From an uncultured Lachnoclostridium sp. (GTDB lineage: Bacteria > Bacillota > Clostridia > Lachnospirales > Lachnospiraceae), in NCBI GenBank assembly GCA_947178155.1, contig CAMWXG010000004.1:1-48469 (forward strand): 48,469 nucleotides of DNA. Direction: 5' to 3'. Positions within the stretch are counted from its first letter, which is position 1. Each line of letters opens with the position of its first letter. Below are positions 2,791-42,290 of the stretch, one piece after another. Both the position numbers and the translations under genes were made by a program. The notes under the pieces were generated by a model. That model had not been told where the DNA came from. It saw nothing but the letters and a program-made list of their open reading frames with translations, and searched no databases.

Positions 2791-4017
2791 TTACTCCTCT
2801 TTCATACTATACTCTTTTACAATATTGTAAAGTTCTTTTTGCATTTCAGGATTTTGCTTTATAACATCATCTATCTGTTCAACTAGTCCAGCCTTAATCT
2901 CCCCATTATACTCTATGCATTCCCTTAGCTTCTGTCTCTGGCTGTTTAATTCGTGACGTATCTCTACCATCTCTCTTTCATCCACAATAGCTATAGCCCT
3001 GCTAACCCATATATCCCTGTCAATAATATCGTGTTCTTTTAGCAAATTAAGCAGACATTCATTATTGAAATTAAGTTTATCAGTGCTTTCTCTAAATCTG
3101 CGCTCATATTCTTTCATCTTGCAATATTCATTCCACTTGCTTTCAAAATCCTTTGCGCTTTTTACTCCAAATTTTTCACAATTATAATCAAGAAGATTAA
3201 TATTATTAACATATTTAATTTTAACTCGATTCATTAAACTTGTTGCTTTGCTTACTTTTCTTTCATTTATAAGCATATCTTTCCTGTTTTTGTTAGACTC
3301 AACAAAAATAACTGTTGCTGATATTGCCGCAAGAAGTATTGTACCAAGATAAGGAAATGTCATATCTACTTCGATAGCATAATAAACTACAATAAACAAT
3401 ACAAATAATGAAATAATAAGAACCGCAAGCACCTTTGCCATTCTTTTAAGCGCATTTTGTCTCTCTACTATATCCTGTCGTTCATCATAAAGCATTACCT
3501 TTTCTTTTCTTAAGTTTGAAATATCGCTCTCTATCGCACTTTGATAAGTTTCAGCATTATACATCTTTTTAATCTCATCAACCAAAGTTTCTTCATATGG
3601 CTCAAATTTGCGCATTTGTGCATCTGTAATTGTAAGTTGACGATTTTTATAACGGTTGCGTTCATTTACAAGATTGACAATATTTTTGCATATATCAACA
3701 AGTTCCTTTCTGTCTTCTCCACTTATCCTGTCAATTTTTTGTATATCAGTAAGCATAGAGGTTACTTTCTCATATTCCGTTTTCGCCTCCTTAATCTGTC
3801 TGTCATTCTCCATGGCAGCTTCACAGCTTTCCCTCACAAATCTCTTTGTATCAGCCTTGTTGACAGGTATAACCTCCTCCTGTTTTAAATCCTCTTCCTC
3901 AATCCTTTTCACAACAGGACTATCAGAAATTCCTGACGTTTCGCTCAAATTCTCAGACTTAATATCTGTTTCTATTATACTTTTTTTATTTTTCTTCTTT
4001 CTATTCCAAAAAGCCAT
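2791..4017 (-). CDS. Coiled-coil membrane protein with a central pair of TM segments; function unknown
   Basis: ORF of 408 aa. Charged helices flank VLAVLIISLFVLFIVVYYAIEV and YLGTILLAAISATVIFV. Confidence 0.75.
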   Translation of the reverse strand: MAFWNRKKKNKKSIIETDIKSENLSETSGISDSPVVKRIEEEDLKQEEVIPVNKADTKRFVRESCEAAMENDRQIKEAKTEYEKVTSMLTDIQKIDRISGEDRKELVDICKNIVNLVNERNRYKNRQLTITDAQMRKFEPYEETLVDEIKKMYNAETYQSAIESDISNLRKEKVMLYDERQDIVERQNALKRMAKVLAVLIISLFVLFIVVYYAIEVDMTFPYLGTILLAAISATVIFVESNKNRKDMLINERKVSKATSLMNRVKIKYVNNINLLDYNCEKFGVKSAKDFESKWNEYCKMKEYERRFRESTDKLNFNNECLLNLLKEHDIIDRDIWVSRAIAIVDEREMVEIRHELNSQRQKLRECIEYNGEIKAGLVEQIDDVIKQNPEMQKELYNIVKEYSMKEE

Positions 4018-4038
4018 ATAAAACCCTTTCTATAAACG

Positions 4039-4067
4039 TTGACAATTACCTCACTCTTTGCTATATT
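4039..4067 (+). promoter_or_regulatory. Sigma-A-type promoter for the 4078-4307 ncRNA candidate
   Basis: TTGACA (4039-4044), 17-nt spacer, TATATT (4062-4067), ~10 nt before the start of the closing stem. Confidence 0.6.
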
Positions 4068-4077
4068 AAACATAAAA

Positions 4078-4307
4078 GGAAGTAACCGCCCACAAAGTGG
4101 TTAGTCTCCCATTCAGTTTGTAATAAACCTATCTGGTACGGGCTAATTAACAAGGTAGGTTTATTTATTTACGCTTGTTATTCCTATCTATATAAGCAAG
4201 CAATGTAATAAAATTTCCCCTGATGAGATTAGTGTCGATTGACACAACGGCAAATACCGTTTTAAGAAAGTTAGGGAGGCTGCCCACCTTGTAACATAGT
4301 TACTTCC
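4078..4307 (+). ncRNA. Candidate structured ncRNA (~230 nt), possibly raiA-like or 6S-like; identity unverified
   Basis: Closing stem GGAAGTAAC(4078-4086)/GTTACTTCC(4299-4307); further stems ACAAAGTGG/CCACCTTGT and AGTCTCCC/GGGAGGCT; internal hairpins AATAAACCTA/TAGGTTTATT (4122-4165), GTGTCGATTGACAC (4232-4245) and AACGGCAAATACCGTT (4246-4261). Promoter TTGACA-N17-TATATT just upstream on +. Confidence 0.6.
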
Positions 4308-4360
4308 GGATATAATATATCATATTTCTTTACATATTACAACTTTCTTTATTGTTATAT

Positions 4361-5404
4361 TTAACAATCCAATGATATGAGTCGTTCCCAAATCTTACTC
4401 AGCCAGTTTTGTACATTATCCACATCTCCGCTTTTACATGCATTCATTAAACTATCATCATTCCATCTGATATCTCCACTCCAAAATGCATTAATAATTG
4501 CATACAGATATGGATACCATTTTATTTGCTCCTCTGAAAAAGCACGAATTGAACAATATCCCTTCCAAAATGCAGCCAATATTTTATTTTCGCTGTTGTC
4601 TTTGGCATTTTCCGGATAATCCATTAATCTTGCATAAAATACAGCCTGCATTACTGCATCACAAAAAAGATTGTTATCGCCACACCTGTTAAAATCAAAT
4701 ACTCCAATTTCTCCTGAACATGTCTGATATAAATTACATTCGCTTATATCCCCTTGTACAGCATACCTCTGCTGCCTTTTTAATGGTGATAAGATTTCCA
4801 TATATGCATTATATTTATCAACAATTCTGACAAATAATCTTTTTACATCATGTGTAAGTCCCGTTTCTATAGATTTAAAAGATACAAAATCAAATAAATC
4901 ATTTTCTTTAAATGGATCAAACAAAACAGCATTTTGAATATGAATGTTACCTATTTCTGAAATCGTATGCATCTTTGCCAGCAGTTCACCTGTCTTTTCT
5001 GCAATTTTTGCATCAACCACTTTTATCTCACCTTCAACAAATTGCTCAACAGTTACAATTACATCATACCCATTAATATTGTACCACTTTGCAAATATAC
5101 CTCCTGTTTGATATTGGTGTGGAGTAATAATACCGCTTTTTTTCAATGTTTCAGCAAAACGGCATTGACTTTCGATAATTTCAAGGGTAACATCTTTTTC
5201 ATTCTTAAAACGTATTACAAGTGGAGAATTTGATTTACATTCAACTTTTATGATAAGCCTTACCTCTCCTATCCCTTTGGCATTCTGTTCATAGTCATAT
5301 CTCTGAATTTCTGAAACACCGGAAACTCTTGAAGAAATTCCATAATCGTTCAATATATCTTCAATATCTGCAGCATTTACATTAAACAATTCCTGCACCT
5401 CCAC
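4361..5404 (-). CDS. APH/choline-kinase-like phosphotransferase family protein
   Basis: 347 aa. Catalytic-loop-like QGDISECNLYQ and metal-binding-like GVFDFNRCGDN. GTG start directly abuts the upstream stop. Confidence 0.7.
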   Translation of the reverse strand: MEVQELFNVNAADIEDILNDYGISSRVSGVSEIQRYDYEQNAKGIGEVRLIIKVECKSNSPLVIRFKNEKDVTLEIIESQCRFAETLKKSGIITPHQYQTGGIFAKWYNINGYDVIVTVEQFVEGEIKVVDAKIAEKTGELLAKMHTISEIGNIHIQNAVLFDPFKENDLFDFVSFKSIETGLTHDVKRLFVRIVDKYNAYMEILSPLKRQQRYAVQGDISECNLYQTCSGEIGVFDFNRCGDNNLFCDAVMQAVFYARLMDYPENAKDNSENKILAAFWKGYCSIRAFSEEQIKWYPYLYAIINAFWSGDIRWNDDSLMNACKSGDVDNVQNWLSKIWERLISLDC

Positions 5405-6244
5405 TTATACACTTATCTCATTTCGATACTCATTTTTCCACTCTCTAATATAACTACCCACTTTATCATAATATTCATCTACATACCCTGCTTTTAATAT
5501 ATCTTTAAGGCGTGATATCCTGCTGACATCTTTTGACTTGCTGCTTTGCATATTTATTTCCTCAAAGTCCTTTTTTATTCCTTCAAGTATTTCCTCTGAA
5601 ATATCATAATGTGTACAAATCATCTTATATTTATCATCATCACCTGCAAGTAAAATGCAATAAATATATTCTCGAAGCGACTCCTCACTCCTGCTTTTCT
5701 CATACGCAGTTGAAAAAGCTTTTGATGCTTTTATGAAATCACCAAGTCCGGCAAGACATACTCCCATATTATGATAAATTATGCCATACTCTTCAATATT
5801 CGCCCTAAGCATATCATCACTTTTTAAAATATGTTCATATTCTTCAATAGCCCGTTCATATGATTTGCATTTAAGAAAATTGTCAGCCTTTATTTTCTGT
5901 CTTTTTCGCAATGGCAAATTGGATGTTTCGTCCATTATCCTTATCAATTCATTTATTTCAGCTTCATCATAATAGTCACAACTGCAGCATAATGTAACAA
6001 CAATATCCTTTAGATTATTGTTGTCATAAATCATATTCTCCATCTTTTCTGCTGTTTTTTCCATATCTAGCTCATCACGAAGCCATACTGCAAAGTCATG
6101 ATTAAATATTTCTTCCTGCATCATGTAGATATTATGACGAATATAATAACATACTTCTTCAATAGAATATACATTAGTATCTGTTACCCTGAAATAATAT
6201 GGGTTTTTTGCCAATTTGCTGCTGCATTGAATTAATTTCCCCAT
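5405..6244 (-). CDS. TPR-like repeat protein of unknown function
   Basis: 279 aa. Helical repeat KADNFLKCKSYERAIEEYEHILKSDDMLRANIEEYGIIYHNMGVCLAGLGDFIKASKAFSTAYEKS. Confidence 0.7.
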   Translation of the reverse strand: MGKLIQCSSKLAKNPYYFRVTDTNVYSIEEVCYYIRHNIYMMQEEIFNHDFAVWLRDELDMEKTAEKMENMIYDNNNLKDIVVTLCCSCDYYDEAEINELIRIMDETSNLPLRKRQKIKADNFLKCKSYERAIEEYEHILKSDDMLRANIEEYGIIYHNMGVCLAGLGDFIKASKAFSTAYEKSRSEESLREYIYCILLAGDDDKYKMICTHYDISEEILEGIKKDFEEINMQSSKSKDVSRISRLKDILKAGYVDEYYDKVGSYIREWKNEYRNEISV

Positions 6245-6258
6245 AATGCCGCCTCCGG

Positions 6259-7524
6259 TTATCCTATGTCAATATAACGTTCCCAAATCCTGTTACTTGA
6301 TGGACAAAATTCACCAAAACCATTGTCCTTAAGTGTTACAATACAGGTATTTTTATCAGCAAAGCGAATCCTAATCGTAAATCGTGTCATTTTATTAGAT
6401 CTGCCTAAAAACCCGCCAAGCGAAAGTATATGTGCTTTTGTCTCATGAAACAAGACATTCCTTACAATTATCTGTACCTCTTCTTCATCATCAGGTATTA
6501 CATCTATACTTACATCTGTCTCTGTCCAGCGTGAACCTGCTTTAACAAGCATAGTTTCACCAAAGCTTGCATTGTGATATGTTTTAATAAGAATATCACT
6601 TGTAATCATATCTTCATCAAGAAATATAAATTCATTAAGTTTTCCCGCTCCTGCAAATTCCCTTGCAGAATAACATGCACCTTTTGTAAAAAGATTTTGC
6701 CCCCTGAACACTCTTCTCCCACTGCAAAGCTCTTTTAATGCACCAGCTGCCCATTTGCCTTCAAATCCCCTGCCTGTTACATATATTGTAGTAACCATCT
6801 GCTTATGGAGTACAGTATTAGCAGCATTTATAAATGTATACCTAAGCTTCACATAATCTCCCTCTTCGACAAGGCTGTATGGCATAATATCTGATAAATC
6901 CTTATTTTCCACACCAACTATATAAGGAATGCTTTTTCTGTCTATAGATATCTGTGAATATATAAGCCCCTTACTGCCATACTCAAACAAACCGACATTA
7001 TTATTCCACAACTCTTTTGCCTGACTTACCGCATAATACATATAGCTTTGTTTATGATTTTGCATAATAAGCCTGTCAGGACCAATTCCAATCTCACCAC
7101 ATATATCAGCCAAGAGCCCATTCAACTTACTTTCCATATTATCTGTACTTATAACTAATTTCTTAATCATTTCATTTGGATAATATTCTTTAAGAAGGCT
7201 AAGCTCTTTTATTACAAAACGTTTTAACAGCTCACGAGCATGAAATGTATAATTTCTTATCTGAAATTCAGAGCTGCCTTCGGCACATTCCAAAACATTA
7301 TTAATTTTTATATAATCCTCACCTGAATTGACTGCATCAGAACCCCACAGCCATTCTCCCCGTTTAGAATTAACTGCCAGCGCAGCGGGAATCTCATACT
7401 CACGCTCCTGACCAATGTCTCTACCTATTGGTACAGGTTCAAATATTTTACTATCAAAACATGAAATCTGGGAAATACCATCGCTGAAATCTATCCCAAC
7501 CAAAAGCTGCCTTTCTTCACTCAT
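6259..7524 (-). CDS. Hsp70/actin-like ATPase-fold protein (DUF5716-like, from memory)
   Basis: 421 aa. VGIDFSDGISQISCFD (phosphate-1-like), VGLFEYGSKGLIYSQI (phosphate-2-like), IYVTGRGFEGKW (adenosine-motif-like). Confidence 0.6.
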   Translation of the reverse strand: MSEERQLLVGIDFSDGISQISCFDSKIFEPVPIGRDIGQEREYEIPAALAVNSKRGEWLWGSDAVNSGEDYIKINNVLECAEGSSEFQIRNYTFHARELLKRFVIKELSLLKEYYPNEMIKKLVISTDNMESKLNGLLADICGEIGIGPDRLIMQNHKQSYMYYAVSQAKELWNNNVGLFEYGSKGLIYSQISIDRKSIPYIVGVENKDLSDIMPYSLVEEGDYVKLRYTFINAANTVLHKQMVTTIYVTGRGFEGKWAAGALKELCSGRRVFRGQNLFTKGACYSAREFAGAGKLNEFIFLDEDMITSDILIKTYHNASFGETMLVKAGSRWTETDVSIDVIPDDEEEVQIIVRNVLFHETKAHILSLGGFLGRSNKMTRFTIRIRFADKNTCIVTLKDNGFGEFCPSSNRIWERYIDIG

Positions 7525-7570
7525 ACCAGTCTCCTACCTGATAATATTATTCTCACGAACGAAAAAGTTT

Positions 7571-10500
7571 TCAGTTTTTTTCGGCCATTAATTTAAATAA
7601 TCTTTTTACATTTTCACGCTCTAGCGCATATTCTTTCATCATATCAATAAGTGTTACTTCATCATGCATTTCTTTTGCTATCATCATAGTATTTAATGTA
7701 TAATAGCGATTGCTCACTCTTGAATTATCCAAAGATTCATCAAAATGTACACTTCTGCTTCTTGTCACCCTCTCTCCATCAGAATGGACTTCTGATATAT
7801 AATACTGTAACAGCTCGTCCTGAAATAGCACAAATTCCTTTACGCGTATTCCTTCAAAAACATTCCGCATTGTTTCAGTAATAAATTCACCACTCTTATA
7901 TCCTCCCTCAGATGAAATGTCCTGAGCTGATGTTATAAGATAATGTATTTTTACTTCACAGTCTGTATCTGAAATATATTCTACATAGTGCTCATCCATA
8001 ATATGCTGCGGAAGAGTAAATTTCCCATAAAAATCCTTAAAAAAAGGAAATACTATATTTTTCTCATACAAGGCATTAATATTATAATCGGCAAAATCCT
8101 TTTCCTCATCTGTCAGATTCTTCTGTCCACTCATATACTTTAGTGAAGCTATCAAACATGGCAGATTTTCCTGTGTACGCACTTCATCATAAAAATATTT
8201 AAACGTCTTCTCAGGTATAATCCATCCCCTGACAAGATATTTATAAGCCAGCATTTTTAGAAATGCCTTTATAAGCCAATTATTTATTCCCCCATCATAA
8301 TAACTGAAAAAAATTTCATACGCATCTGGTGCTATTTCCTCAGTAAAAACCATTTGCGCAATTATTCTTTCCTCAAAATCTTTACAATCCAGATTAAAAC
8401 TTTTTGCGGTATTCCAAATCTGTGTTTCTTCATATATACCGCCAATAAAATATCTGCAAAGATATTTTATTAAATTTTCATCAAACTTACCCTTATTAAA
8501 TATGTGCCATGCAAGTTTTACAAGTTTGGCATCATCATTGTCTATGTTCTCTGCAAATTTTTCAGAAGCTATCTGAAGCAGTCTTTTTGCTGATATTCTT
8601 TCATATCCGTAGAGTAAAATCCCCTCCATTGCTTTATCATAACAATGGCGTACTGCACAATATTCTATAAACCTGCCTCTGTCAGCAGCATTTATCTGTG
8701 TCCAGTCCATATTCATAAGAGCTTCATCTAAAAGCTCTCCTTCAAAATTATCAAAATAGTATTTAATCAATGTGCTGAATACTTTGCGGTGTTGATATGT
8801 ACTTAATCCTTCTATATTTATGACTGCTTTCCTTACTTCTGCCACTGATACTCCTGTTTGATACATATGGTCTGCCCTGTCGTATAAATAAAGAAGCAGT
8901 CTGCTGTCTGTCTTATTTTTCTCAAAACATTTATCTGCAAGATGATCAAGATTTAAAAGTTTATTTAACGTAAAATTCTCCGATATAACATATCTATTAT
9001 CAAGCTTGTCAGCCGCAAATACATGTGCCTGCTCAGTAAATATATGCACAATCGCCCTGCCATGCACCAACGGAACAAATACCTCATCTCTTAACTCTCT
9101 ATGTCTTACATAAACGCCAACTATTTCAGGATTACAGCATATTATTTCATATGCAAACATAACCTTTGGCAATTCCTGCGCAACACTGTCCGTTATGCTC
9201 CCCTCATTAATGCAATCCTCATATATTACAGCAAAATTTTTACTAATGCGTCCATGGTGAAGTTGTTTAAAACAAAACTGATTAATACTGTTTTTATATG
9301 CAGCATATGTATCTGCAAGCTTCATCTTGTTTTTAATTACATAAGAATAAAGTATAGCTTTTTTGGGAGCTGTAAGATGGTTGTCATATAAAAAATATAA
9401 AAGTACTGATTTATCAAGCTTTGCATCTAAACTTTCATCAAAAGAATACATATAATATTCATATAAATCAGTAAGCTTCAGATTTTTTTCTATTCCAAGC
9501 GCATACCACTTAAATGCATCTGATGATGTCATCTGACCTTTCATATACATACTGCATATGACACTAAGTATGTCATCATCTTCATTTTGGGTGTAAAGCC
9601 TGCATAAATCCTTAAGAATTATTCCTGAATAATTCTTCATATGTCCGGCAAGGTATGTATACCTTATTATAAGCTCCTCTTCCAGAAAATCATTTTTGCA
9701 TCCCCAATGAATACACTTTATAATTTCAGGTGTTAATTCACGAAGCCATTCTGGAGAGCTATTAAGAATACAGCATATTTCATAAAACATAACAGGACTG
9801 TTGCAGCCTTCCCTCAGATGTTTAAGTATCTCATCAAATTTAACCCTTTCAATGTTATAATCCTCATCAAGATACATAAGCATCCAAAATATCTGCCAAC
9901 TATGCTCTTTATTGGAATAACACTCTTTTATCCTTCTTATGCACTCCTTTTTTTCATTATTATCGCTTTCCCAAAGCCCCTTTAAATACAGATACGCACA
10001 ATAAAGCTTTATATCATTTTTTCTAAGCTCACCTGCCATGTCATCAAGATGAGAAAAACCTTTACTAACTATTTTCTCACGATTATCCATTATACCCAAA
10101 TGCACTTTATAAAGTTCTGAAACTATAGATGTATCTTTGCTTTCCAAATTTAATATTACATCTTCTATACTTGTAATATATTCATCCTTGTCAATTCTTC
10201 CTAGGCAGAAATCAATATACAATTCAACAAGATGGTATAGCTTATATTGTCTTTCGATATGGTCAAGCACCTTATCATGCTTTGTCCCTTTCTTCACTGC
10301 AGATATTTCTATCTCTATAGTCTGTCTGACCGAAGAAATAAATATTCTTCCATAATTGTTTCCCTCGCTCATTTTCTCATAATCAATCAAAAACGGTAGT
10401 ATATATTTATTTCCGGCAAAATTATCTGTCCATATTATTTTATGTTCAGGTTTTACAAATTCGGCATCTGACTCAATATGAAATTCACCAAATCCCCAAT

Positions 10501-11203
10501 TATCCTTTTTTATAATAACCTTATCCATAAAATTTTCATAGCATTCCTCATAAAAAAATGAGCTGCGGTCAACAGATAACTGAACTTGTGATTTCTTATT
10601 TATTGCAATAAGAAATTCCTCCATAGCAATTCTTTTGCTTGTACCCGCACTTATGCCCCTGTACAATGCTATATTGGCATTATCCCTATATAAAAATATC
10701 TCCTCAAAATGCTTATTTTTGAAAAGCTGCATGGCCTCATCGCTGTCTTCCTTGGCAAGATTTGCAAAATGAAACAAATCTTTTATTCTTCCTGATGACA
10801 CCATGCATGAAGGAACATTAACAGTAACACTAAATTGTATTCTTGCACTTCCACAATCTGTTATTACACATATATTTCCTTTTATAATCTCCCCAGCAGT
10901 AAGTCCCTCTGCATCAAAGCGAAAAACAATATCCGCACATTCACTTTGAAAAGACTTCTGCTCCAATTCAACATAATGACAATCGGTACTTATGATTCCT
11001 TTCATTACCCTGTTTTCACTATTGCTCACACTAAAAACGCCATCGCAGTATCCTCCTGCATCTGTTTCCAGTTCAAGCTGTGATGGAGTAAACTCTATTA
11101 TCGCTCTATCACTTCTAAATATTCCTTTGGCTAATTCATCAATCTTCTCTTTCATATACTCCTCCGAAAATTGTGTATGTGAATAGTACCCAAAAATTGC
11201 CAT
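7571..11203 (-). CDS. Giant 1210-aa protein: N-terminal beta/Ig-like region and long alpha-solenoid (DUF5717-like, from memory)
   Basis: Single long ORF on minus, 46 nt upstream of the Hsp70-like gene. N-terminal FTPSQLELETDAGGYCDGVFSVSNSEN..., then extended helical repeats. Confidence 0.7.
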   Translation of the reverse strand: MAIFGYYSHTQFSEEYMKEKIDELAKGIFRSDRAIIEFTPSQLELETDAGGYCDGVFSVSNSENRVMKGIISTDCHYVELEQKSFQSECADIVFRFDAEGLTAGEIIKGNICVITDCGSARIQFSVTVNVPSCMVSSGRIKDLFHFANLAKEDSDEAMQLFKNKHFEEIFLYRDNANIALYRGISAGTSKRIAMEEFLIAINKKSQVQLSVDRSSFFYEECYENFMDKVIIKKDNWGFGEFHIESDAEFVKPEHKIIWTDNFAGNKYILPFLIDYEKMSEGNNYGRIFISSVRQTIEIEISAVKKGTKHDKVLDHIERQYKLYHLVELYIDFCLGRIDKDEYITSIEDVILNLESKDTSIVSELYKVHLGIMDNREKIVSKGFSHLDDMAGELRKNDIKLYCAYLYLKGLWESDNNEKKECIRRIKECYSNKEHSWQIFWMLMYLDEDYNIERVKFDEILKHLREGCNSPVMFYEICCILNSSPEWLRELTPEIIKCIHWGCKNDFLEEELIIRYTYLAGHMKNYSGIILKDLCRLYTQNEDDDILSVICSMYMKGQMTSSDAFKWYALGIEKNLKLTDLYEYYMYSFDESLDAKLDKSVLLYFLYDNHLTAPKKAILYSYVIKNKMKLADTYAAYKNSINQFCFKQLHHGRISKNFAVIYEDCINEGSITDSVAQELPKVMFAYEIICCNPEIVGVYVRHRELRDEVFVPLVHGRAIVHIFTEQAHVFAADKLDNRYVISENFTLNKLLNLDHLADKCFEKNKTDSRLLLYLYDRADHMYQTGVSVAEVRKAVINIEGLSTYQHRKVFSTLIKYYFDNFEGELLDEALMNMDWTQINAADRGRFIEYCAVRHCYDKAMEGILLYGYERISAKRLLQIASEKFAENIDNDDAKLVKLAWHIFNKGKFDENLIKYLCRYFIGGIYEETQIWNTAKSFNLDCKDFEERIIAQMVFTEEIAPDAYEIFFSYYDGGINNWLIKAFLKMLAYKYLVRGWIIPEKTFKYFYDEVRTQENLPCLIASLKYMSGQKNLTDEEKDFADYNINALYEKNIVFPFFKDFYGKFTLPQHIMDEHYVEYISDTDCEVKIHYLITSAQDISSEGGYKSGEFITETMRNVFEGIRVKEFVLFQDELLQYYISEVHSDGERVTRSRSVHFDESLDNSRVSNRYYTLNTMMIAKEMHDEVTLIDMMKEYALERENVKRLFKLMAEKN

Positions 11204-11218
11204 AATGCCAGTATATTA

Positions 11219-11962
11219 CTAAATCCAAGTTGCACCATCTACAGAAAGGATTTCCCCTGAAATATAACTTGCCATATCACTTGCCAGAAATAGGAACGCA
11301 TCTGCAACCTCTTCTGGTTCTCCTGGACGGCCAATAGGTATTTGCATTGATATACGATTAACAACCTCATCTGGAAGTGAAGCAACCATATCTGTACGTG
11401 TCACGCCTGGAGCTACTGCATTTACTCTGATATGATCTTTTCCAAGCTCTCTTGCCAATGAAATAGTCATGCCATTTACAGCAAATTTACTTGTAGGATA
11501 ACCTACTCCACTTGCCTGCCCTGCTAAACTCACCATAGAACTTGTATTTATAATACTTCCGCCACCATTTTCTTTCATAATCTTTGCAGTAGGCAATATA
11601 GCATAAAATAATGCTTTTACATTTATATCTATTACCTTATCAAACTCCTCTGGTGTATAGTCATATAAAGGTGTACTTTGAGAAATACCAGCATTATTAA
11701 CTAAAATGTCAATCTTTCCATATTTCTCTTTTATCTTAAGAACTGCCTCTTCTACCTGTGCTGCGTCAGTAAGTGTTGGACACATTCCCTCCACCTCCCA
11801 TTCAGCATTTTCCTCCTTAAGACTCTTCAACGCATTATCAACTGTTTCCTGTCTTGAGCCAAACAATATAACCTTTGCCCCATTCTCCAAATACTTTTTT
11901 ACAATTGAATAGCCAATCCCCCTTGTGCCTCCAGTTACAATGGCAACTTTACCTTTTAACAT
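11219..11962 (-). CDS. SDR family oxidoreductase (FabG-like)
   Basis: 247 aa. TGGTRGIG, NNAGIS, YPTSKFA, C-terminal SGEILSVDGATWI. Confidence 0.9.
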   Translation of the reverse strand: MLKGKVAIVTGGTRGIGYSIVKKYLENGAKVILFGSRQETVDNALKSLKEENAEWEVEGMCPTLTDAAQVEEAVLKIKEKYGKIDILVNNAGISQSTPLYDYTPEEFDKVIDINVKALFYAILPTAKIMKENGGGSIINTSSMVSLAGQASGVGYPTSKFAVNGMTISLARELGKDHIRVNAVAPGVTRTDMVASLPDEVVNRISMQIPIGRPGEPEEVADAFLFLASDMASYISGEILSVDGATWI

Positions 11963-22551: not shown

Positions 22552-22816
22552 CCGCGCATCATGTGTCGAAAATGCCACTATGGCCGTTACCTTAGCAGTT
22601 AACTCAGCTCCGGCTCCCTTACGGCACACGAAAGTTCTCACTTAGTGCTGCTAGGTTCCCCTCCTGACACGGTTCATGAGTTTCCATTGCGTAAGACCAA
22701 AACGTCAACGCCACTTACTAAGGGCAGCTCCACAGATAGCAAATCCTAAACATGACATCACCTCTGCTATAGCGGATTGCAGATACAGGGCACCGCTAAC
22801 TCCCCGGCTAGCGCGG
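22552..22816 (-). ncRNA. ffs: Signal recognition particle RNA, large (Alu-containing) Firmicutes type
   Basis: Minus strand begins CCGCGCTAGCCGGGGAGTTAGCGGTGCCCTGTATCTGCAATCCGCTATAGC and contains GTGTCAGGAGGGGAACCTAGCAGCACTAAG. Ends GCGCGG pair with the 5' CCGCGC. Adjacent to tadA. Confidence 0.93.
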
Positions 22817-42003: not shown

Positions 42004-42290
42004 AGAAAAAAACGCCTTTAAGAAAATATCTTAAAGGCGAAAATCCCGCGTTACCACTTTAATTTATCTGCATCTCGCGACACAGACCTCTGCAACTGCA
42101 TACACAGTCTGACGCTATAACAGGCGTACCTGTCGCAGCCTAATGATACTTATATATCATGTCGGTACGAAACTCCAAGACCATCTTCTGTAACATCATG
42201 CATACCTCTTCTCAGCATATGAGGCTCTCTGTAATGTCTGATAGTTACATACTCTTCTTTTCACAGTCTTTACCTTTATATTCTATCATA
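42004..42290 (-). promoter_or_regulatory. T-box leader of metG with terminator
   Basis: Minus: ...TTAAAGTGGTAACGCGGGATTTTCGCCTTTAAGATATTTTCTTAAAGGCGTTTTTTTC. T-box motif at 42044-42060; terminator stem 42013-42039. Confidence 0.88.

Follow-up and report, generated by a model that had tools for sequence, protein, structure and literature searches.

What do two adjoining protein families of no assigned function contribute to the bacteria that carry them? The question is raised by a locus in a stretch of 48,469 nucleotides (nt) from an uncultured Lachnoclostridium sp. (contig CAMWXG010000004.1; hereafter the window, meaning the whole stretch that was analysed), in which genes for a DUF5717 protein, a DUF5716 protein, a tetratricopeptide repeat (TPR) protein and a coiled-coil protein lie on the same strand. 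An earlier note, made from the letters alone, had proposed a system of four genes encoding a giant solenoid protein, an Hsp70/actin-like protein, a TPR protein and an APH-like kinase. Calling of open reading frames (ORFs) recovered these four genes with the coordinates and strand given there, spaced 0, 14 and 46 nt apart, and Pfam hmmscan of the window proteins bore out the family names that the note had suggested: the protein of 421 amino acids (aa) matches DUF5716_C (PF18980, E 6e-97; 324.6 bits against a gathering cut-off of 34.7) and the 1210-aa protein matches DUF5717_N (PF18984, E 7e-282) and DUF5717 (PF18983, E 4.5e-86; 937.7 and 289.2 bits, respectively, against a 25-bit gathering cut-off), each over the full length. 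The TPR label of the 279-aa protein is weak but real (TPR_2, E 3e-5). A full-text literature search returned no paper on DUF5717 and a lone paper naming DUF5716, unrelated by its title; the Pfam descriptions shown for the two families give no function and mention neither an Hsp70 ancestry nor an operon nor a pseudo-enzyme state. The answer favoured here, which together with the mechanism proposed below is held with moderate confidence, is that DUF5716 is an Hsp70 paralogue and the operon the reduced form of a larger, dedicated Hsp70 chaperone operon; the evidence for these steps comes from sequence, predicted structure and phylogeny.

Conservation of the operon

The locus is a near-universal chromosomal core operon of the Lachnospiraceae. 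DUF5716 was found in 246 of 250 genomes of the family (245 of 249 genera; 213 of 216 good assemblies), with very few exceptions as one copy, and DUF5717 in all 71 Lachnospiraceae genomes listed from the draw over the order. Four genomes have no DUF5716: in one of them DUF5717 sits at the end of a contig, and the other three, all drafts of 89–98% completeness, have neither family; a true loss may have occurred in a few Lachnospiraceae genomes. DUF5717 also occurs in many of the order's other families, where it is more divergent and often split. Outside the order, no match above the cut-off was obtained in 246 genomes of the class and 349 of the phylum (the class draw gave one match below the cut-off), and none of the matches in the phylum genomes lay outside the Lachnospiraceae. 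No copy of the operon was found on plasmids and none was confirmed in viral contigs, and a mobile origin was rejected on these grounds.

About 100 loci were collected, and their ORFs were called and labelled with profiles. The order DUF5717-DUF5716-TPR is found in 56 Lachnospiraceae-type loci, with median spacings of 15 nt between the adjoining DUF5717 and DUF5716 genes (54 measured loci) and of 13.5 nt between the DUF5716 and TPR genes (52 loci). In 40 of the 53 testable loci the TPR gene is directly followed, at a median spacing of 18 nt, by a gene for a coiled-coil protein with two transmembrane segments (2TM). This conservation of gene order is far above chance. The co-occurrence expected in the earlier note for homologues of the 1210-aa and 421-aa proteins is thus conserved and fixed in order across the 56 loci, but the set as drawn there is not: the APH-like gene is absent from the other 55 loci, and the true fourth gene is that of the coiled-coil protein (Table 1). 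In-frame fusions of DUF5716 and the TPR protein in two genomes (L069 and L084) suggest that these two proteins work together. Both the TPR protein and the coiled-coil protein have counterparts in the sister families (hhalign 99.6% for the former; 99.7%, E 3.6e-25, for the latter). The two transmembrane segments of the coiled-coil protein are central hydrophobic stretches in the hydropathy profile (about residues 189–222 and 219–242); its only matches were coiled-coil noise, e.g., syntaxin and keratin.

Outside the operon itself, one gene recurs beside DUF5717 in different families, that of a HisC/CobD-like aminotransferase (33 loci), in most cases in divergent orientation; it lies upstream of DUF5717 in L005–L007, L093 and others and is not beside the operon in the window. 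In two sister-family genomes (L121:12059-16000 and L116:2336-5419) the operon is followed by a ValRS-like gene, a TPR protein and spoIIAA/spoIIAB/sigF-like genes, probably plain synteny.

DUF5716 and its operonic Hsp70 relatives

As judged by fold and profile, DUF5716 is an Hsp70 homologue and, as judged by its residues and by the missing subdomain IIB and lid, is predicted not to be a working ATPase chaperone. Its AlphaFold2 (AF2) model (predicted local distance difference test score, pLDDT, 82; predicted TM-score, pTM, 0.75) has DnaK as the best Foldseek match (E 3.8e-17), spanning the nucleotide-binding domain (NBD) and the beta part of the substrate-binding domain (SBD-beta), and Ssz1 is among the top matches (E about 1e-15). 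The TM-scores of these matches are modest (0.45–0.58), as is to be expected from domain movement and a missing subdomain. The predicted fold consists of an NBD followed by an SBD-beta, without the SBD-alpha lid. Catalytic residues were compared in 54 Lachnospiraceae DUF5716 proteins with the DnaK of the same genome (G000:C52) as reference, and almost none are kept: K70, E171 and T11 in none of the 54 proteins, T199 and D201 in one each. This loss predicts that DUF5716 does not hydrolyse ATP. Residues 207–276 of the reference DnaK (about 231–300 in E. coli), which make up NBD subdomain IIB, are missing from all 54 proteins, and the SBD-beta-like domain is strongly conserved. In the sister families, DUF5716 is already degenerate (K70, T199 and D201 each 0/20) and retains IIB; the 62 operonic Hsp70s of those families keep the catalytic residues, one fragment aside. 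GrpE contacts subdomain IIB, its main docking part, at residues 255–272 and 276–302 (PMC10825016), so that the GrpE-like gene, whose loss is described below, and the site at which its product would dock have disappeared together.

The sister-family operon provides the bridge to canonical Hsp70s. In about 25 loci it reads DUF5717-Hsp70A-GrpE-domain protein-DUF5716/Hsp70-Hsp70B-Hsp70-VWA-TPR-coiled-coil, with DUF5717 as one or two ORFs and the coiled-coil gene present in several loci; 17 loci have all five of its central genes, and the others are interrupted or cut by contig ends. Pfam assigns Hsp70A (PF00012, E 5e-76), Hsp70B (HSP70, E 7e-63), Hsp70-VWA (HSP70, E 4.5e-96, with a C-terminal VWA, E 2e-10) and the largely helical GrpE-domain protein (PF01025, E 3e-13, at the C-terminus), and one sister-family DUF5716 orthologue matches both DUF5716_C (E 1.5e-26) and HSP70 (PF00012, E 1.4e-17). 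By hhalign, Lachnospiraceae DUF5716 aligns to sister-family DUF5716 with E 1.9e-42 and the latter to Hsp70B with E 3.8e-65. Because the DUF5716 and DUF5717 profiles matched nothing at E<1 among PDB sequences, homology rests on this sister-family bridge and on the predicted folds; the operonic relatives, hhalign and the Foldseek match to DnaK together uphold the Hsp70/actin-like nature that the earlier note had assigned to the 421-aa protein. A J protein was not matched by Pfam in the window operon or among the scanned sister-operon proteins. Two components of the sister operon stand out by their architecture. At L093:494-2572 (-) and in sister-family orthologues, conserved in the operon, an Hsp70 carries a von Willebrand A domain (VWA) in the place of the lid, and we know of no characterised protein with this architecture. 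Encoded at L093:5869-7803 (-), next to three operonic Hsp70s, is a protein of 644 aa whose GrpE domain sits at the C-terminus, behind a long N-terminal region.

A maximum-likelihood tree of 75 proteins, computed with a simple model and containing long branches, places Lachnospiraceae DUF5716 (grouped with its sister L089 at support 100) inside the sister-family DUF5716 clade, and the entire DUF5716 clade is sister to Hsp70B. The duplication is therefore older than the split of the families, and the Lachnospiraceae must have lost Hsp70B. None of the three catalytic operonic Hsp70s, nor the GrpE-like gene, remains in the Lachnospiraceae operon, and the parsimonious reading is that Hsp70A, Hsp70-VWA and the GrpE-like gene were lost as well. 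The DUF5717 tree groups all full-operon loci with support 100; it separates full from reduced operons and is not rootable on its own.

A putative chaperone scaffold and its alternatives

The solenoid nature ascribed to the 1210-aa protein was borne out by its AF2 model (residues 1–1200, pLDDT 84) and by Foldseek. The model shows two N-terminal beta-sandwich domains (Ig-like, ASH/SPD-2-like), then a long alpha-solenoid that includes a beta insert, and finally a beta domain at the C-terminus (DUF5717_C). For the N-terminal part the matches are Ig-like domains of ciliary central-apparatus (HYDIN-type) proteins and the SPD-2 domain of CEP192; taken as a whole, the chain bears a loose likeness to the solenoids of Ski3, Ctr9 and IFT-A. 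In the mechanism proposed here, this solenoid would constitute a platform for which the coiled-coil/2TM protein provides the membrane anchor. DUF5716, held together with the TPR protein, would offer its SBD-beta as a passive, low-affinity site for clients or partners without an ATP cycle, and may deliver clients to the ordinary DnaK of the cell or lend stability to an assembly in the membrane. That general DnaK, which the genome encodes separately, would serve as the catalytic partner. The ancestral gene set came with ATPases and a nucleotide-exchange factor of its own; the Lachnospiraceae complex has therefore probably either turned into an adaptor with a purely structural role or come to borrow the general DnaK and GrpE.

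By analogy, the operon most likely encodes a membrane-tethered, ATP-hydrolysis-free chaperone scaffold in which DUF5716, seated on an Ig-like/solenoid platform, would be a pseudo-Hsp70 akin to Ssz1; the notion of a chaperone- or scaffold-like complex in the earlier note is supported as a general idea. Ssz1, a component of the yeast ribosome-associated complex (RAC), binds ATP without hydrolysing it, has no lid and passes clients to a catalytic Hsp70 (PMC7083937). DUF5716 resembles it in the predicted Hsp70 NBD and SBD-beta without a lid, in the loss of catalytic residues and, probably, in having partners other than Hsp70s. It differs in that subdomain IIB is missing too, that the operon has no J-domain (Zuo1-like) partner and that no sign of ribosome binding is seen. 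Eukaryotic Ssz1 is likely a convergent analogue. The complete picture, i.e., a family-wide core, membrane-anchored and energy-free pseudo-chaperone with an important job, built from an IIB-less Hsp70 on an Ig/solenoid platform and derived stepwise from an undescribed operon with three Hsp70s, GrpE and VWA, is advanced tentatively, at a little short of an even chance. Three observations weigh against the proposed mechanism. The coiled-coil gene is not beside the operon in 13 of the 53 testable loci, so that some genomes would have no membrane tether if the gene does not lie elsewhere in them; the pTM of the DUF5717 model is 0.57, which leaves the overall shape uncertain; and the adenosine-site glycines (GxGF...KGA) of DUF5716 are conserved, so that some ATP binding may persist.

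A first alternative, itself unlikely, is that DUF5716 is an actin-like structural or filament protein which, together with DUF5717 and the 2TM protein, forms a membrane-associated cytoskeletal or envelope scaffold without folding clients. The actin-fold relatives MreB and FtsA polymerise, the catalytic residues of the DUF5716 NBD are lost, the operon includes a membrane protein, and the N-terminus of DUF5717 resembles Ig-like domains of ciliary scaffold proteins. However, the best Foldseek matches are full Hsp70s including SBD-beta rather than actins, the SBD-beta-like domain has been kept under strong conservation, and tree and operon place DUF5716 among Hsp70s. Moreover, the loss of NBD subdomain IIB would take away a subdomain that serves in actin-like polymer contacts.

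A further possibility, to which a low probability is likewise given, is a cotranscribed housekeeping scaffold in which the Hsp70 ancestry is real and chaperoning is gone, the proteins being structural subunits of one core machine, e.g., in secretion or envelope assembly. The near-universal, nearly single-copy retention, the loss of the ATPases and the membrane protein are all consistent with this, but no conserved outside neighbour names such a machine, the aminotransferase gene mentioned above being the only frequent one.

It is rather improbable that the unit is an anti-phage biological-conflict system related to the GAP1-N2 GTPase-centred systems, whose theme 2 includes HSP70, GrpE and FNIII-TPR proteins (PMC7159879). 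The part list of this theme is close to that of the sister operon (Hsp70s, GrpE, VWA, an Ig-like and TPR protein, a transmembrane protein), down to a second non-standard Hsp70 (PMC7159879). In contrast to that theme, the operon carries no GTPase, GAP1-N2 or effector gene, the proteins scanned having fallen to other families or to none. Its fixed order and nearly constant single copy in 245 of 249 genera mark a core gene, unlike patchy defence loci such as the GAP1-N2 systems; window proteins had no PADLOC or PHROG match, and none were found in viral contigs or plasmids. The non-standard Hsp70s differ as well, since DUF5716 keeps SBD-beta and loses IIB whereas the GAP1-N2 protein loses its peptide-binding domain. 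The GAP1-N2 systems are nevertheless the nearest published theme, and the operon is a variant of Hsp70-based systems. With respect to the DnaK/GrpE system, the likeness lies in the paralogous Hsp70s and the GrpE-domain protein of the sister operon, whereas the window operon has no catalytic Hsp70, GrpE or J protein.

The APH-like gene and the decayed toxin unit next to it are a recent insertion outside the conserved system, because relatives lack the gene and the adjacent 343 nt are the decayed remnant of an element that occurs across the genus. Only the window has a gap, of 1387 nt, ahead of the coiled-coil gene, filled by these two features, and it is the sole locus in which an APH-like gene sits between the TPR and coiled-coil genes. 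Among 60 relatives, of which 27 belong to the same genus, no homologue of this gene was found at E<=1e-5, nor was there one in plasmids or viral contigs. As for the kinase label, the matches are weak (PF01636, E 0.082, 13.1 against 23.2 bits; NCBIfam PRK11768 kinase model, E 9e-4, 18.7 against 194 bits) and fall below the curated cut-offs of both databases. Read by eye, the translation contains QGDISECNL ... GVFDFN, with the His of HGD replaced by Gln, and the PDB yielded a single weak match (E 0.036). The multi-copy element to which the 343 nt belong, matched as many as 11 times in a single genome and with further copies at G000:C189 ~3519-3780 and 4011-4272, encodes Hol_Tox peptides of about 30 aa when intact (PF16935, E 4e-10 on an intact copy). 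The decayed unit has lost the ribosome-binding site and usual start of the toxin, and a near-consensus promoter (11/12) lies on its plus strand, the antisense side, at 4039-4067. A known structured RNA in this region was rejected, no Rfam match having exceeded the threshold. That the APH-like kinase joins the other three genes of the earlier note in a single pathway of modification or chaperoning is very improbable: the gene abuts the TPR gene on the same strand with no gap, but its absence from the 60 relatives and the 55 other loci and its place beside a decayed toxin-antitoxin unit, parting two genes usually 18 nt apart, refute it as a general system and leave at most a strain-specific role; the kinase was rejected as a member, and its suggested modification of a system product finds no support.

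An SDR gene (11219-11962) ends 15 nt upstream of the 1210-aa gene and is not a conserved neighbour. A T-box leader (42030-42273) and a large bacterial signal recognition particle RNA (22552-22816), both ordinary, lie on the minus strand of the window.

Table 1. Features of the operon locus in the window, with the basis of each assignment
Feature	Coordinates	Strand	Basis
DUF5717 protein, 1210 aa	7571..11203	-	Pfam, AF2, Foldseek
DUF5716 protein, 421 aa, predicted pseudo-Hsp70	6259..7524	-	Pfam, AF2, Foldseek, motif loss
TPR protein, 279 aa, conserved third gene	5405..6244	-	TPR_2, hhalign, in-frame fusions
Coiled-coil/2TM protein, 408 aa, conserved last gene	2791..4017	-	Synteny, hydropathy, hhalign
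APH-fold kinase-like gene, GTG start, 347 aa, lineage-specific insertion outside the conserved system	4361..5404	-	
Decayed Hol_Tox type I toxin-antitoxin unit, part of the insertion, outside the system	4018..4360	-	

Significance for the Lachnospiraceae

Two Pfam families without a function, near-universal in a dominant gut family, thereby acquire an origin and a role that can be tested. Some bacteria of the order combine in a single operon three catalytic Hsp70s with a pseudo-Hsp70 and a GrpE-domain protein, and the order provides a comparative series from this full multi-Hsp70/GrpE operon to one with a pseudo-Hsp70 and scaffolds only. Along the series the loss of IIB tracks that of the GrpE-like gene; the series constitutes a natural experiment on what an Hsp70 may still be useful for after its ATP cycle has gone.

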